From Bradyrhizobium sp. G127 (GTDB lineage Bacteria; Pseudomonadota; Alphaproteobacteria; Rhizobiales; Xanthobacteraceae): a DNA stretch of 64,000 nucleotides. Positions 9,260-16,706 of the stretch are shown here, piece by piece. The stretch's first letter is position 1, and every line of letters begins with the position of its first letter. Below the pieces are notes generated by a model that was not told the DNA's origin, searched no databases, and saw nothing but the letters and a program-made list of their open reading frames with translations. The stretch spans positions 310,001 to 374,000 of the forward strand of contig NZ_JAKFGN010000001.1 in NCBI RefSeq assembly GCF_021502575.1, read 5' to 3'. A program made the position numbers and the translations under genes.

Positions 9260-9718
9260 CTACCTTCCGGTGGAACCAAACCCGCCGCTGCCGCGATCCG
9301 TAGACGACAGCGCCGATACCTCCACCAGATTTGCCTGCGTCACCGCAGCGATGACAAGCTGGGCGATGCGTTCGCCGCGCCGGATCGTGAACGGCTCGTC
9401 GCCGTGATTGATCAAAAGCACTGAAACTTCGCCGCGATAGTCGGCGTCCACCGTGCCCGGCGCGTTGAGAACGGTCACGCCGTGCTTGAGCGCGAGGCCA
9501 GAGCGCGGCCGGACCTGCGCCTCGTGGCCCGGCGGCACCGCGATCATCAGCCCGGTCGGCACCAGCGCGCGTTGCCCGCGCGCCATCGTCAGCGGCCTGT
9601 CCTGTGGAACCGCAGCAAGCAGGTCGAGACCGGCAGCATGGGCGCTCTGATAGGCCGGCAGCGTGAGGCCTTCGGCGTGCGGCAGGCGCTGAATCTCGAC
9701 GGTGATGCTCAATGTCAT
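9260..9718 (-). CDS. dut: dUTP diphosphatase
   Basis: A 152-residue trimeric-type dUTPase that hydrolyses dUTP to dUMP and keeps uracil out of DNA. All five family motifs are visible in order: [45 protein letters not shown] and the flexible C-terminal [10 protein letters not shown]. Length is normal. The start at 9716-9718 overlaps the coaBC stop in ATGA, so dut is translated from the coaBC message and should share its control. Confidence 0.97.
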
Positions 9719-11151
9719 GCGGGCTGTTGTCCTGCGGTCGTCACGATCTTCGCCACGAGGGCGTCGGCGACCTCCTCTTTGGTCATCACCGGCCAGGAAT
9801 CAATAGCGACATCAACAGCGACGTCGGCTTTATCCAGCGTAAGAACGTGGACCGTGTTGCGGTCGCCGCCCATGACGCCGGTTGCCGGCGACACATCGTT
9901 GGCGACGATCCAGTCGCAGCCCTTGCGTTTCAGCTTCGCGGTGGCGTTCTCGATCAGGTTCTGGGTCTCCGCTGCAAACCCGATCACAAGTTGCGGCCGG
10001 TTTTGCTTGAGTTTCGACACAGTGGCGAGAATGTCGGGATTCTCCACCAGTTGCAGGGGCGGCATGCCAGCGGATGTCTTCTTGATCTTCTGGTCGCCGG
10101 CATTGGCGACGCGCCAATCGGCTACCGCGGCGGCAAAGATTGCGATGTCCGCCGGCAGCGCAGCCTCGACCTGCGCCAGCATGTCGCGCGCGGATTCCAC
10201 ACGGATGACGCGAACGCCGGGAGGATCGTCGAGATCGACCGGGCCTGAGACCAGCGTGACGTCGGCGCCCGCATCCGCCGCGGATGCGGCAATGGCATAG
10301 CCCTGTTTGCCGGATGAGCGGTTGGCGATGTAGCGCACTGGGTCGATCGGCTCGTGGGTCGGCCCTGCGGTGATCAGGATTTTCTTGCCTGCCAGAGGTT
10401 TCGGCTGCGGCGGGCGAAGCATGGCGTCGGCAGCAGCGGCGATTTCCAGCGGTTCGGACATGCGGCCGACCCCGGCCTCGTTGGCCTCCGCCATCTCGCC
10501 GGAATTCGGGCCGATGAAATGGATGCCGTCACGCGCGAGCTGCGCGACGTTGCGCCTGGTGGCGGCATTGGCCCACATCAGGGGGTTCATCGCGGGTGCC
10601 AGCAGCACCGGTCGGTTGGTCGCCAGCAGGATCGCGGTGGCGAGATCGTCGGCATGGCCCTGCGCCATTTTTGCCATCAGGTCGGCGGTGGCGGGGGCCA
10701 CGACAATCAGGTCGGTGTCGCGGGCGAGGCGGATGTGGCCGGCGTCAAACTCGCTCTGGGCATCGAACAGGTCCGTGTAGCAGCGCTCGTCGGCCAGTGC
10801 AGAAGCTGTGAGCGGTGTGACAAACTGCTGCGCGGCGCGGGTCATGACGCAGCGGACATGGACGCCGCGATCCCTGAGCCTCCGGATCAGATCAAGCGCC
10901 TTGTAGGCAGCGATGCCGCCGCCGATGATGAGCGTGACGCGGGGCTTGTCTGTCACGGTGTGCGCGCGCTGCGGCCTGAGGGCTGACTTCACTTCGGGAG
11001 CCCTCGGCGCCGTAACGTCCGCGTGTCCTTCCGTGGCCCCGCGCAGGATCACCCGCACCTCGTCCTCGACTGAGCGGCCGTTTTGGGCGGCGCGCAACCG
11101 GAGGCTGGCTTTGAGGGCTTCGTCGAGCTTCCGGACGGTCAGACTGGCCAT
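9715..11151 (-). CDS. coaBC: CoaBC with an N-terminal ribbon-helix-helix domain
   Basis: A 478-residue protein with three parts. Residues 1-37 ([20 protein letters not shown] then [17 protein letters not shown]) look like an FitA/Arc-type ribbon-helix-helix DNA-binding domain of toxin-antitoxin systems. After a linker (38-70), residues 71-245 are CoaC, the flavin-dependent phosphopantothenoylcysteine decarboxylase, with GGGIAAYK, His139 in GHIRLAR and PAMNPLMW. From about 255 on is CoaB, the cysteine ligase, with [22 protein letters not shown] and the KIKK segment. The two enzymes make phosphopantetheine for coenzyme A. The ATG has GGGAG upstream and a promoter with palindromes 22 bases further. 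No toxin gene is adjacent. Confidence 0.93.
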
Positions 11152-11172: not shown

Positions 11173-11222
11173 TTTATAGCAAATGATTGCAATGCAATCA
11201 AATCATGACTGCAATGCTATCA
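11173..11222 (-). promoter_or_regulatory. coaBC promoter with two operator-like palindromes
   Basis: On the minus strand a -35 TTGATT (11196-11201) and a -10 TATAAA (11173-11178) are 17 bases apart, giving a short leader to the ATG at 11151. The palindrome TGATTGCAATGCAATCA at 11184-11200 has perfect 8-base arms and overlaps the -35 and spacer. A second, imperfect copy, TGACTGCAATGCTATCA, is at 11206-11222, centred 22 bases away (about two helical turns). This is how ribbon-helix-helix autorepressors usually bind. Confidence 0.7.
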
Positions 11223-11224
11223 GT

Positions 11225-12793
11225 TTAGCGAATGATCCAGAGAATGGCCATCAACGTCAGCGCGATCGCCCAGAGTGCCACTGTTTGCCAACGATTGCGC
11301 TGGGCTTCGGCCTTGCCGATGGCGGCGACCGTTTCGGGCGCCAGCACCAGCCCGTTGCGGGTCATGTCCTCGAACTGGTTCAGCACCGCGATCGAGCGCG
11401 CGGCAATCGCCGGCAGCCCGGACAGCACGCGGCCGAGTTCGCCCGCGCCCGCCACCGCGCCTTCGATCTTGCCTCGCGGTCCGAGATTGCGCTCGATCCA
11501 TTCGCGCACCACGGGATCGGCGGTGGTCCAGATATCGAGTTTGGGGTCGAAGCCGCGGGCCACGCCTTCCACCACCACCATGGTCTTCTGCAGCAGGATC
11601 AGTTCGGGCCGCGTGCGCATGTCGAACAGGCCGGTGACTTCGAGCAGCAGCGACAGCAGTTTCGCCATCGAGATTTCGTCGGCGGCGCGGTTGTGGATCG
11701 GCTCGCCGATGGCACGGATGGCCTGCGCGAAATTCTCCACCGAGTGATGCGCGGGGACATAGCCCGCCTCGAAATGCACCTCGGCGACGCGGCGGTAATC
11801 GCGCGTGATGAAGCCCAGCAGAATTTCCGCGAGGAAGCGCCGCTCCTTGAGGCCGAGCCGGCCCATGATGCCGAAGTCGACCGCGACCAGACGCCCAACC
11901 TCATCGACGAACAGATTGCCGGGGTGCATGTCGGCGTGGAAGAAGCCGTCGCGCAGGGCGTGACGCAGGAAATTCTGGATCACCTTGCGGCCGAGGTCCG
12001 GCAGGTCGATCTGCGCGGCCTCCAACCTGGCGCGATCGTTCAGTGCGATGCCGTCGATCCATTCCATCGTCAGCACATGATGGCTGGTGCGGTCCCAGTC
12101 CACCGTCGGCACGCGGAAGTCGTGATCGTCGCGGGTGTTCTCCGCCATTTCGGACAGCGCGGCTGCTTCCAGCCGCAGGTCCATTTCCATCGCCACCGAG
12201 CGAGCCAGCGTATCGACGATCTCGACCGGACGCAGGCGACGCGCTTCAGCGGAGACCGCTTCCATCTTGCGCGCGACGAACATGAAATCGCCGAGATCCT
12301 TGCGGAAGCGCCCGCCGACATTGGGGCGCAGCACCTTGACCGCGACCGGCGTGCGCACAGCGTCCTTCTCGACCTCGGCGCGATGCACCTGGGCAATGGA
12401 GGCGGCGGCGACGGATTCGCCGAAGCTTGCAAACACCTGCGCCACAGGCTTGTCGAACGCGGTGACGATCACGGCTTCGGCTTCAGCTTGGGGAAACGGC
12501 GGCAGGCGGTCCTGAAGATTCTCCAGGTCGCGCGCCATGGTGACGCCGACCACATCCGGCCGTGTGGCAAGGAACTGGCCGAGCTTGACGTACGTGGGAC
12601 CGAGCCGCGTCAGCGCGCGGGACAACCGTCCGCTGGTAGCTGCGCCGCGCCGTTCGATCAGCCGCGCGATCCTGATCGGCAGCACCGCCTGCGGCGGCAG
12701 TGACGACGGATCGGCAAAGCCGAACACGCCTTCGCGCGCGAACACGTAAGCCGCGCGCGCCAGCCTTGCGGTATGAGTGAGAGCTGCGATCAC
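11225..12793 (-). CDS. ubiB: UbiB-family protein for ubiquinone biosynthesis
   Basis: A 522-residue ABC1/UbiB atypical kinase, an ATPase-like factor needed for ubiquinone synthesis at the inner membrane. It shows the family KxGQ motif ([13 protein letters not shown]), [23 protein letters not shown], the catalytic-like [14 protein letters not shown] and VDFGIMGRL, and a hydrophobic C-terminal stretch ending [17 protein letters not shown]. The GTG start at 12791-12793 overlaps the ubiE stop (GTGA); the open frame continues upstream out of homology, so that extension is rejected. coaBC follows after 73 bases with its own promoter. Confidence 0.95.
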
Positions 12794-13557
12794 AAACGCC
12801 AGCCTGAATGCAGCGCGACGATGCCGCCGGACATGACGTCGTATTTGACGCGCGAGAAGCCCGCGGCGCGGATCATGTCGGCGAAGGCGTTCGGCTTGGG
12901 AAACTGCCGGATCGATTCCACCAGATAGCGATAGGATTCGGCGTCGCCGGTCACGGCCTTGCCCAGCTGCGGGATCACGTTGAACGAGAACAGGTCGTAG
13001 ATCCTGTCGAGGCCTGGCACATCGACGGACGAGAATTCCAGGCACAGAAAACGCGAGCCGGGTTTCAGCACGCGATAGGCCTCGCTCAAGGCCAAGGGAA
13101 TGCGCGGCACGTTGCGGATGCCGAATGCGATGGTGTAGGCGTCGAAGCTCTTGTCCGGGAAGGCGAGGGATTCGGCGTTGCCTTCGACGAACGACACCTG
13201 ATGATCGAGACGCTGCGCCACGGCGCGCTCGCGGCCGACGGCGAGCATCTCGCCGTTGATGTCGCAGACGGTGGCATGAAATCCGCTGCCGGATGCTTTC
13301 GCCGCGCGGAAGGAAATATCGCCGGTGCCACCAGCCACGTCGAGCAGTGCGAACGGCGCGTCGCCGCGCGGCGGATTCAGCGCGGTGATCATCGCCTCTT
13401 TCCAGAGCCGGTGCATGCCCCCGGACATCAGGTCGTTCATCAGGTCGTACCGCTTCGCCACGCTGTGAAACACCTCGTTCACCAGCGTCTGCTTGTCGCC
13501 GAGCTCCACGTCGCGGAAGCCGAAATGCGTCGTTCCGTCAGGCCGTTCCATACTCAT
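12790..13557 (-). CDS. ubiE: UbiE, demethylmenaquinone/2-methoxybenzoquinol C-methyltransferase
   Basis: A SAM-dependent C-methyltransferase of ubiquinone synthesis, about 255 residues from the ATG at 13557. It has [24 protein letters not shown] at the start of homology, the glycine-rich SAM site [27 protein letters not shown] and the C-terminal [12 protein letters not shown]. An ATG two codons inside (13551) is also possible, and the open frame runs 27 codons further upstream without family similarity. It is coupled to ubiB by a four-base overlap and points away from the glyoxalase-like gene. Confidence 0.95.
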
Positions 13558-14956: not shown

Positions 14957-15152
14957 CAGCGTTCGGTGCAAGCCGGGGGCGGCCGGTTGCGGGATTCGCA
15001 TGGGCTGAATTGCCACACAAACGAAATGTCAAAATGGTGACGGAGTTCAGCGCATAAGGCGGGATGGTGACGATTCCGTGCGCGCTCCTTTCCTGGCCGG
15101 GAGCGCGGGTGATTGCGATGCAACCACGCCAGTTTTGCTGCGAGCGGCCGGA

Positions 15153-16544
15153 TTATTTCCGTACACACACCAGCCGCAGCACCGAGGCTTTCGCATCGAC
15201 TGGCCCTGAGGCAACGGTCACGCCTTTCGCCCGCAAGAATTCGCGCACCGAATCCGCCGGGACCAGCAGCGCCTGCGACGGCAGCGGGATGCCGGCCGGT
15301 CCTGCAACGACGGCGGGCTTCAGCCGCGCGATGCCGGCGAATTTTCCATCGCTGTCGATGGCCGCAGCGCCGGAGAAGCCGACCGCAGGCTCCGGCGACA
15401 GGGTCATGTCGGCGCCGGCGGGCGCGGCCACGGCGGCGAGAGTGGTCACGGCGTTGCGGCCGCCCTGATTTTGCGGATCGGAAATGCCGGTGATGCTGAC
15501 ACTGGATTTTGCTGCGCCATTGCCGGATAGCGCCAGCGGCTTCAATCCGCCGGCACCGTAGATTCGAAGCAGCGCCAGTTCGCGTGCTTCGTCATCGGCA
15601 ATGCGGGTCGCATTGCCATAGCCCGGCACCGCGATGGTCACGCAGCCGTCGGTGGCCTGACGCTCGGCGACGATGGTGCCGTCGGCGCCGACGATAATGC
15701 CGGTGGAGTATTCGACCTTCTTGCGCGGCGGCGGCAGGTTCTGCGCCACGGCATTGCCGGGGAACGGATTGTAGGCGCTCGACATCGCCACGGTGACGGG
15801 AGTCATCGTGCCCTCGGTGGCCTGATCGTACATGATGGTGAGGATGCGGACCTCGTCGTCGCGGGTCTGGCCGCGCACGTAGAATTTCTTCAGGCCCTGC
15901 GATCCGGACAGCACGAAGAAATCCGGCTTCACCACGCTGTAGTCGATCTTGCGCGCGTTGAGCTTCTTCTCCTTGTCGGCGACAGTTGCTGTCGTGGCGC
16001 CGGCTTCCTTGCGGCGGGCAAATTCGATCTGGATGCTGCCGGTGGCGGACGACCATTTGGTGCCTGAAATGTCGCTGACGATCAGCGGCACCAGCTTGGT
16101 CGGCAGGCCGACGCGCGCGCCGCTGGTGGCGTCGCTGACGATTTTCCAGCCGACATTGTCCTGCAGCTTTTTCGCTTCGGCGCGCAGCACGCCGCGTTCC
16201 TGCGGGTTCAGCACGCCGGTCTGTTTGCCGCCGTGATCCTTCTGGAATGTCTTGATGGCGTTGACCATCCGCTCGCTGACTTCGCCGGTGATCGTGCCGT
16301 TATAGAGGCTGACCCAGGCGAGATCCGACTGGATCGCAAGCCGATCGGCCTGCGCCATGGCATTGGCCGTGTCGGCCGGGGTCTGGGTGGCGGGCCGGAT
16401 CGGCACCGTGGCGACGGGCTTCGGCTTGATCGCCGGGGCGGCCGGGGGCGCTTGCCGGGCGGGCGGCGTCTGCGCAGCAGCGGTCCCGAGCAGGGCCGCC
16501 AGCATCGCGGCACTGGCGAGCGGCAGTTTCATGATTGGTCTCAT
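15153..16544 (-). CDS. Secreted trypsin-like protein with degenerate catalytic residues
   Basis: A 463-residue exported protein. Residues 1-25 form a signal peptide (ending GTAAAQ), followed by a Pro/Ala-rich linker, a peptidoglycan-binding-like repeat (about 70-125, ITGEVSERMVNAIKTFQKDHGG) and a trypsin-like half (about 278-440). Aligned by eye with HtrA-like proteases, Ser391 is kept in GFSGAAA, but the His position looks like Gln296 in AERQATDGC and the Asp position like Glu322 in ARELALLRI. It may thus be a binding protein rather than an active peptidase. An ATG at 16532 is an alternative start; the frame upstream of 16544 runs into a repeat. Confidence 0.7.
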   Translation of the reverse strand: MRPIMKLPLASAAMLAALLGTAAAQTPPARQAPPAAPAIKPKPVATVPIRPATQTPADTANAMAQADRLAIQSDLAWVSLYNGTITGEVSERMVNAIKTFQKDHGGKQTGVLNPQERGVLRAEAKKLQDNVGWKIVSDATSGARVGLPTKLVPLIVSDISGTKWSSATGSIQIEFARRKEAGATTATVADKEKKLNARKIDYSVVKPDFFVLSGSQGLKKFYVRGQTRDDEVRILTIMYDQATEGTMTPVTVAMSSAYNPFPGNAVAQNLPPPRKKVEYSTGIIVGADGTIVAERQATDGCVTIAVPGYGNATRIADDEARELALLRIYGAGGLKPLALSGNGAAKSSVSITGISDPQNQGGRNAVTTLAAVAAPAGADMTLSPEPAVGFSGAAAIDSDGKFAGIARLKPAVVAGPAGIPLPSQALLVPADSVREFLRAKGVTVASGPVDAKASVLRLVCVRK

Positions 16545-16571
16545 AGCTGGTAAGAAGCGCGTCTGAGCATA

Positions 16572-16620
16572 GAGCATGATCCCGAAAAGTGGATACCGGT
16601 TTTCGGACAAGATCGTGCTC
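16572..16620. repeat. Dispersed palindrome, GAGCATGATC family
   Basis: A 49-base inverted repeat, beginning GAGCATGATC and ending GATCGTGCTC, with CCGAAAAGTGG and CCGGTTTTCGG between. The same kind recurs at 50198-50245, a half copy lies at 34667-34695 and a diverged one at 45893-45950. It sits upstream of the divergent exported protein and MoeB genes. Confidence 0.8.
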
Positions 16621-16706
16621 CAGTATAATGATGGTTTGTCCCCTGTGATGACGCGCTGGTTCGACAGCCGGGGCAAAATATCTGACGCGAAGGTGACGAC
16701 ACCGGA

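Follow-up and report, generated by a model that had tools for sequence, protein, structure and literature searches.

The coaBC gene and its N-terminal extension

In the window, by which we mean the whole 64,000-nucleotide stretch of DNA that was analysed, the gene for the bifunctional flavoenzyme CoaBC of coenzyme A (CoA) synthesis lies between ubiB and dut. Its open reading frame begins with an ATG that has GGGAG 6 nt upstream and encodes an enzyme with an additional domain at the N terminus. The genes and protein domains are as follows.

9260 to 9718, reverse strand: dut (dUTPase), its start overlapping the coaBC stop (ATGA)
9715 to 11151, reverse strand: coaBC fusion gene, 478 residues; FitA-like ribbon-helix-helix (RHH) domain, linker, CoaC and CoaB
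9742 to 10395, reverse strand: CoaB (phosphopantothenate-cysteine ligase) domain, residues 253-470; Pfam PF04127, alignment to 6tgv and 1u7u
10447 to 10944, reverse strand: CoaC (phosphopantothenoylcysteine decarboxylase) domain, residues 70-235; Pfam PF02441, alignment to 6tgv
10945 to 11034, reverse strand: linker, residues 40-69; pLDDT, dN/dS, variable length, comparison with the FitA tail
11035 to 11148, reverse strand: FitA-like RHH domain, residues 2-39; Pfam PF22513, PDB match, AlphaFold (AF2) and Foldseek, dN/dS
11225 to 12865, reverse strand: ubiB (ABC1/UbiB kinase-like), upstream neighbour of coaBC; Pfam ABC1, E = 7.5e-75, 5' boundary putative

Because the start of dut overlaps the stop of coaBC, the two genes are probably co-transcribed and co-regulated.

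The enzyme part resembles that of other bacterial CoaBC (Dfp) proteins, such as those of M. smegmatis (6TGV) and E. coli, in that both catalytic domains are complete. The NCBIfam model coaBC_dfp covers residues 71-469 (E = 1.2e-120; 403 bits versus a cut-off of 220), the Pfam models Flavoprotein (PF02441) and DFP (PF04127) match residues 71-232 and 253-436, respectively, the K-X-K-K motif is conserved (KIKK, residues 355-358), and the enzyme part aligns lengthwise with 6TGV. The CoaC clamp (window 10447-10515, residues 218-231) is without cysteine, like that of M. smegmatis CoaBC and of unfused relatives, and is not specific to the fusion. What distinguishes the window's CoaBC from these enzymes is the added N-terminal domain of a DNA-binding type, together with a FitA-type candidate operator upstream of the gene.

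The first-pass annotation, made from the sequence alone, had described a FitA/Arc-type RHH domain joined by a linker of 33 residues to a complete CoaBC, and our analysis bears out this architecture, with the linker at about residues 40-69. The Pfam model PF22513 (FitA-like_RHH) matched residues 2-39 over positions 1-38 of its 39 (E = 1.9e-16; 60.2 bits versus a curated cut-off of 27). When residues 1-74 were compared with all PDB chains, the only sequence match was gonococcal FitA (2h1o, 2bsq; E = 0.005, ungapped over 41 residues). Consistent with these matches, AlphaFold predicted the two RHH helices at residues 11-24 and 28-41 with a mean pLDDT of 80, in a model that is a monomer, whereas the RHH ribbon forms only in the dimer. 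Foldseek placed DNA-bound FitA first among PDB structures, followed by Arc, CopG, AmrZ and NikR (probability 1.00, TM 0.77); its E value of only 0.07 is weak for a short model of 49 residues, and the leading matches were all RHH or near-RHH proteins. Thus, the extension is like FitA of the N. gonorrhoeae FitAB (VapBC-type) system in both sequence and predicted fold. It differs from that system in that the RHH domain is covalently attached to a metabolic enzyme, at a locus that lacks both a toxin gene and the toxin-binding tail. This C-terminal tail of FitA (…DPIGGvelE…PRFDD), which is present in the intact FitA proteins of relatives, is absent from the fusion, where an unrelated Pro/Ala-rich linker is found instead. 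The linker is predicted to be disordered (pLDDT below 50 at residues 43-63), varies in length and evolves fast, and the enzyme part is modelled with confidence.

Among Afipia genomes, median dN/dS was 0.116 for the RHH domain, 0.107 for CoaC, 0.147 for CoaB and 0.62 for the linker. The RHH domain is therefore under purifying selection comparable to that on the enzyme part. Moreover, M1, R7, S27 and E29 are invariant across 45 diverse fused RHH domains, and by this sequence evidence the domain is in use. We also considered whether the extension is a mis-called start, the true start lying near residues 66-72. An Afipia metagenome-assembled genome offers something of the kind: at 1364-1582 of its locus (L013, from the same genome as L143), a linker frameshift at a C homopolymer parts the RHH domain (53 residues) from a GTG-started CoaBC, which may reflect either a sequencing error or a natural split. 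This reading was rejected by the dN/dS of 0.12 in residues 2-39 and by the presence of the extension across families, to which the ribosome-binding site before the ATG may be added, and we give it next to no credence.

The extension is widespread in relatives, with strong conservation of the residues ahead of position 60. It was present in every examined member of the window's genus, in 27 of 45 further genera sampled from the family (one genome per genus) and in Bradyrhizobium and Rhodopseudomonas records. Beyond the family, we found the fusion in Mesorhizobium, Phyllobacterium, Nitratireductor, Zhengella and one genome named Brucella. No fusion was seen outside the order among 289 genomes of the class, searched with a 125-residue query by a BLAST-type method that distant RHH types could escape; the sampled Alphaproteobacteria outside the order have CoaBC without an RHH domain.

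FitA-type operator units upstream of coaBC

The 50 bp from 11173 to 11222 before coaBC contain two palindromes, one of which is overlapped by a putative promoter.

11173 to 11201, reverse strand: putative coaBC promoter, TTGATT (11201-11196), 17-nt spacer, TATAAA (11178-11173), read by eye
11184 to 11200, reverse strand: candidate operator B, TGATTGCATTGCAATCA, a pair of 8-mer units with 9-bp spacing, between the putative -35 and -10
11206 to 11222, reverse strand: candidate operator A, TGATAGCATTGCAGTCA, a pair of 8-mer units beginning 3 bp past the ubiB stop and located 22 bp upstream of operator B

The promoter assignment stays putative, a formal consensus scan having rejected it on account of the last -10 base, which is A.

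The unit of both palindromes is an 8-mer, TGMNNKCA, in a 9-bp register. We compared the upstream regions of 140 fused coaBC genes, 64 unfused ones and 6 in which the RHH domain is separate. Units occurred at 3.12 per 120 bp upstream of fused genes and at 0.17 upstream of unfused genes, compared with about 0.11 expected by chance, and the prevailing spacing upstream of fused genes was 9 bp, followed by 22-23 bp. Similarly, the 17-bp pattern TGATTGCANTGCAATCA, with up to 3 mismatches allowed, was found upstream of 115 of the 140 fused and 2 of the 6 separate-RHH genes, of none of the 64 unfused genes and in none of 700 shuffled upstream sequences. A chance palindrome was thereby rejected. About 7% of the fused genes have one unit or none (for example L055, L061 and L164). 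The 9-bp phasing fits adjacent RHH dimers on DNA, as in the Arc, MetJ and CopG repressors, and the gonococcal FitA operator probably uses TGCTATCA/TGATAGCA as well.

In two genera with mixed composition (g19 and g26), the members that lack the domain also lack the operator. On supported branches, only five independent pairs could be formed; domain and operator changed jointly in about four of them and never apart, a result that by itself falls short of significance (sign test, p 0.06-0.5), related sequences being non-independent. Stand-alone relatives of the RHH domain, encoded elsewhere than at coaBC in related genomes, served as a positive control: 14 of 16 carry 8-mers of the TGMNNKCA type upstream, and at least 12 of these genes directly precede the start of a PIN-type toxin. 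Their units are arranged as TGATAGCA-N12-TGCTATCA in some and as three units in 9-bp register in others, and FitAB modules of relatives thus have TGATAGCA/TGCTATCA-type operator 8-mers in common with the coaBC promoter. Overall, the unit statistics establish the motif as real, whereas its specific binding by the RHH domain of the enzyme is what we infer from the co-occurrence of domain and operator. The chance that the palindromes serve some other factor appears trifling.

Two readings would uncouple the palindromes from the domain. In the first, they form the transcription terminator of ubiB and have no connection with RHH; a terminator scan did flag 11200-11184. Such a hairpin would have only three G-C pairs, its T run is interrupted, and the units are absent from every unfused coaBC downstream of ubiB. 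Further, many relatives carry the units as direct repeats with a 9-bp period (e.g. TGATTGCATTGATTGCA), which form no hairpin, and a terminator is very unlikely. In the second, the RHH domain has lost DNA binding and is retained only to help the enzyme dimerise or assemble. RHH domains dimerise, and in PutA the RHH domain is responsible for dimerisation (PMC5293562). However, CoaBC already oligomerises without RHH (PMC7794376), and this reading, which we regard as improbable, leaves unexplained both the invariant ribbon residue R7 and the operator units that track the domain.

Genome-wide, a degenerate form of the motif had two matches in 4.76 Mb, both at coaBC, and a wider regulon was rejected on this basis. 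Allowing 3 mismatches added six scattered sites, about the chance level. One of them, the operator-like TGATTGCGATGCAACCA at window 15110-15126 (2 mismatches), lies between a mutM-like gene and a convergent gene at 15153-16676; chance alone would yield about one site of this kind.

A toxin-antitoxin module at the same position in relatives

Capture of the domain from a toxin-antitoxin module, which had been suggested from the sequence of the window, is substantiated by relatives that carry intact and decayed fitA-fitB modules at the same spot. In genome G118, the interval between ubiB and coaBC holds a perfect operator, a fitA gene for 93 residues and an undamaged gene for the PIN toxin, in the order operator-fitA-fitB-coaBC, and the order fitA-fitB-coaBC was also found in G083, G113 and G134. 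G088 has the operator, a complete fitA and a scar of fitB, of which the first and last codons are left, followed by coaBC; G049 has fitA, a similar fitB scar and then coaBC. These arrangements were checked with Pfam. Genus g19 holds G088, one fused genome and one genome with neither, and g26 holds G118 and G049 together with genomes with neither. In genus g60 (L088, L104 and L105), intact fitA-fitB lies directly upstream of coaBC and FitA is N-terminally extended. The operator units of these three modules are weak or absent, and they perhaps represent an independent insertion.

The remark in the first-pass annotation that no toxin gene is adjacent holds for the window, where no PIN toxin gene adjoins coaBC, and not for these relatives, in which the toxin is adjacent. 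The only FitA-like RHH domain in the window's genome is the one fused to CoaBC, and the whole genome gave no match to FitB, a weak negative as the search had no positive control in that genome. With respect to a fused domain that still acts as antitoxin to some FitB-type toxin encoded at another place in the genome, its likeness to FitA speaks for such a role, and the missing FitB match and the replacement of the toxin-binding tail by the Pro/Ala-rich linker speak against it; we consider the role highly improbable.

By comparison of these loci, on the simplest path the toxin gene would have been deleted first, after which the antitoxin was fused and its tail lost. A tree of the CoaBC core requires at least four supported changes of state and does not distinguish gains from losses; the fusion may have arisen once with later losses or several times, both of which fit the tree.

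Proposed autogenous repression of coaBC-dut

We propose, with a probability of roughly 0.8, that, through the domesticated antitoxin domain, CoaBC represses its own operon, coaBC-dut, in the manner of PutA. That the enzyme itself could shut its promoter had been raised in the first reading of the sequence, and the idea gains support from the FitA-type operator units, which go with the domain and are lacking in front of unfused coaBC genes. A FitA once paired with a FitB toxin between ubiB and coaBC would have lost its partner by deletion and, minus its toxin-binding tail, would have been joined to the front of CoaBC. The fused RHH domain would still dimerise and read the ancestral operator (TGMNNKCA units 9 bp apart) over the putative -35 and -10 of coaBC. 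When CoaBC is plentiful, RHH dimers from the enzyme oligomer would fill the tandem sites, shutting out RNA polymerase. Because mycobacterial CoaBC is a dodecamer with CoaC trimers at its vertices (PMC7794376), a particle could present as many as six RHH dimers, which, speculatively, might bind the tandem sites cooperatively. The domain, its purifying selection, the operator with its co-occurrence and the toxin-antitoxin intermediates are shown computationally; DNA binding, repression, cooperativity through enzyme oligomers and the order of the evolutionary steps are what we infer.

PutA (trifunctional in, e.g., E. coli) is likewise a bifunctional flavoenzyme with an N-terminal RHH domain, and it represses its own operon (PMC5293562); such autogenous repression is established for PutA and proposed for CoaBC, which has the N-terminal RHH fusion and candidate operator sites in its own promoter. 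Unlike CoaBC, PutA is an enzyme of proline breakdown, and the two are unrelated: Pfam found no PutA domains in the CoaBC fusion, so that the likeness would be one of working and not of homology. In addition, the RHH domain of CoaBC belongs to the FitA type, its locus shows toxin-antitoxin intermediates, and ligand switching, known for PutA, is hypothetical for CoaBC.

Such switching, which the first-pass annotation had raised for flavin or substrate, would turn CoaBC into a metabolically gated repressor, in which CoA, acyl-CoA, the state of FMN, substrate or a change of oligomer toggles the enzyme between DNA and catalysis and thereby senses CoA demand. PutA provides a precedent, as it moves between DNA and membrane according to substrate (PMC5293562), and mycobacterial CoaBC offers both a feedback signal, being inhibited by CoA thioesters, and a multivalent particle, the dodecamer (PMC7794376). 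However, dosage-dependent autorepression suffices without gating, and the disordered, poorly conserved linker seems ill suited to passing on a conformational signal tightly, which leaves gating a tentative proposal. Slightly more tentative is its extension to many Hyphomicrobiales, whose CoaBC would be a metabolically gated transcription factor, the CoA-making particle sensing CoA status and setting the transcription of coaBC and dut.

To our knowledge, few metabolic enzymes have a DNA-binding domain of their own. Discussion of how CoA synthesis is controlled centres mostly on enzyme feedback, and the fusion points to transcriptional control. Here the source of the domain is visible, in that a toxin-antitoxin module beside an essential gene is seen intact, decayed and fused in relatives, providing a testable case of a selfish module turning into a housekeeping regulator. 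In the open-access literature searched, we found no published description of the fusion: no paper joined CoaBC with ribbon-helix-helix, and CoaBC with antitoxin gave unrelated papers only. Beyond what had been noted from the window's sequence, the analysis adds the FitA-type candidate operator in the putative coaBC promoter and the apparent stepwise intermediates in relatives. The fusion occurs in Bradyrhizobium, Mesorhizobium and further genera that are well studied. It was also found in two genomes of 1.5 Mb in the same family as Mesorhizobium (L224 and L227; f24 g140), reduced genomes in which the RHH-CoaBC fusion persists and the units have diverged (TGAAATCATTGAAATCA).
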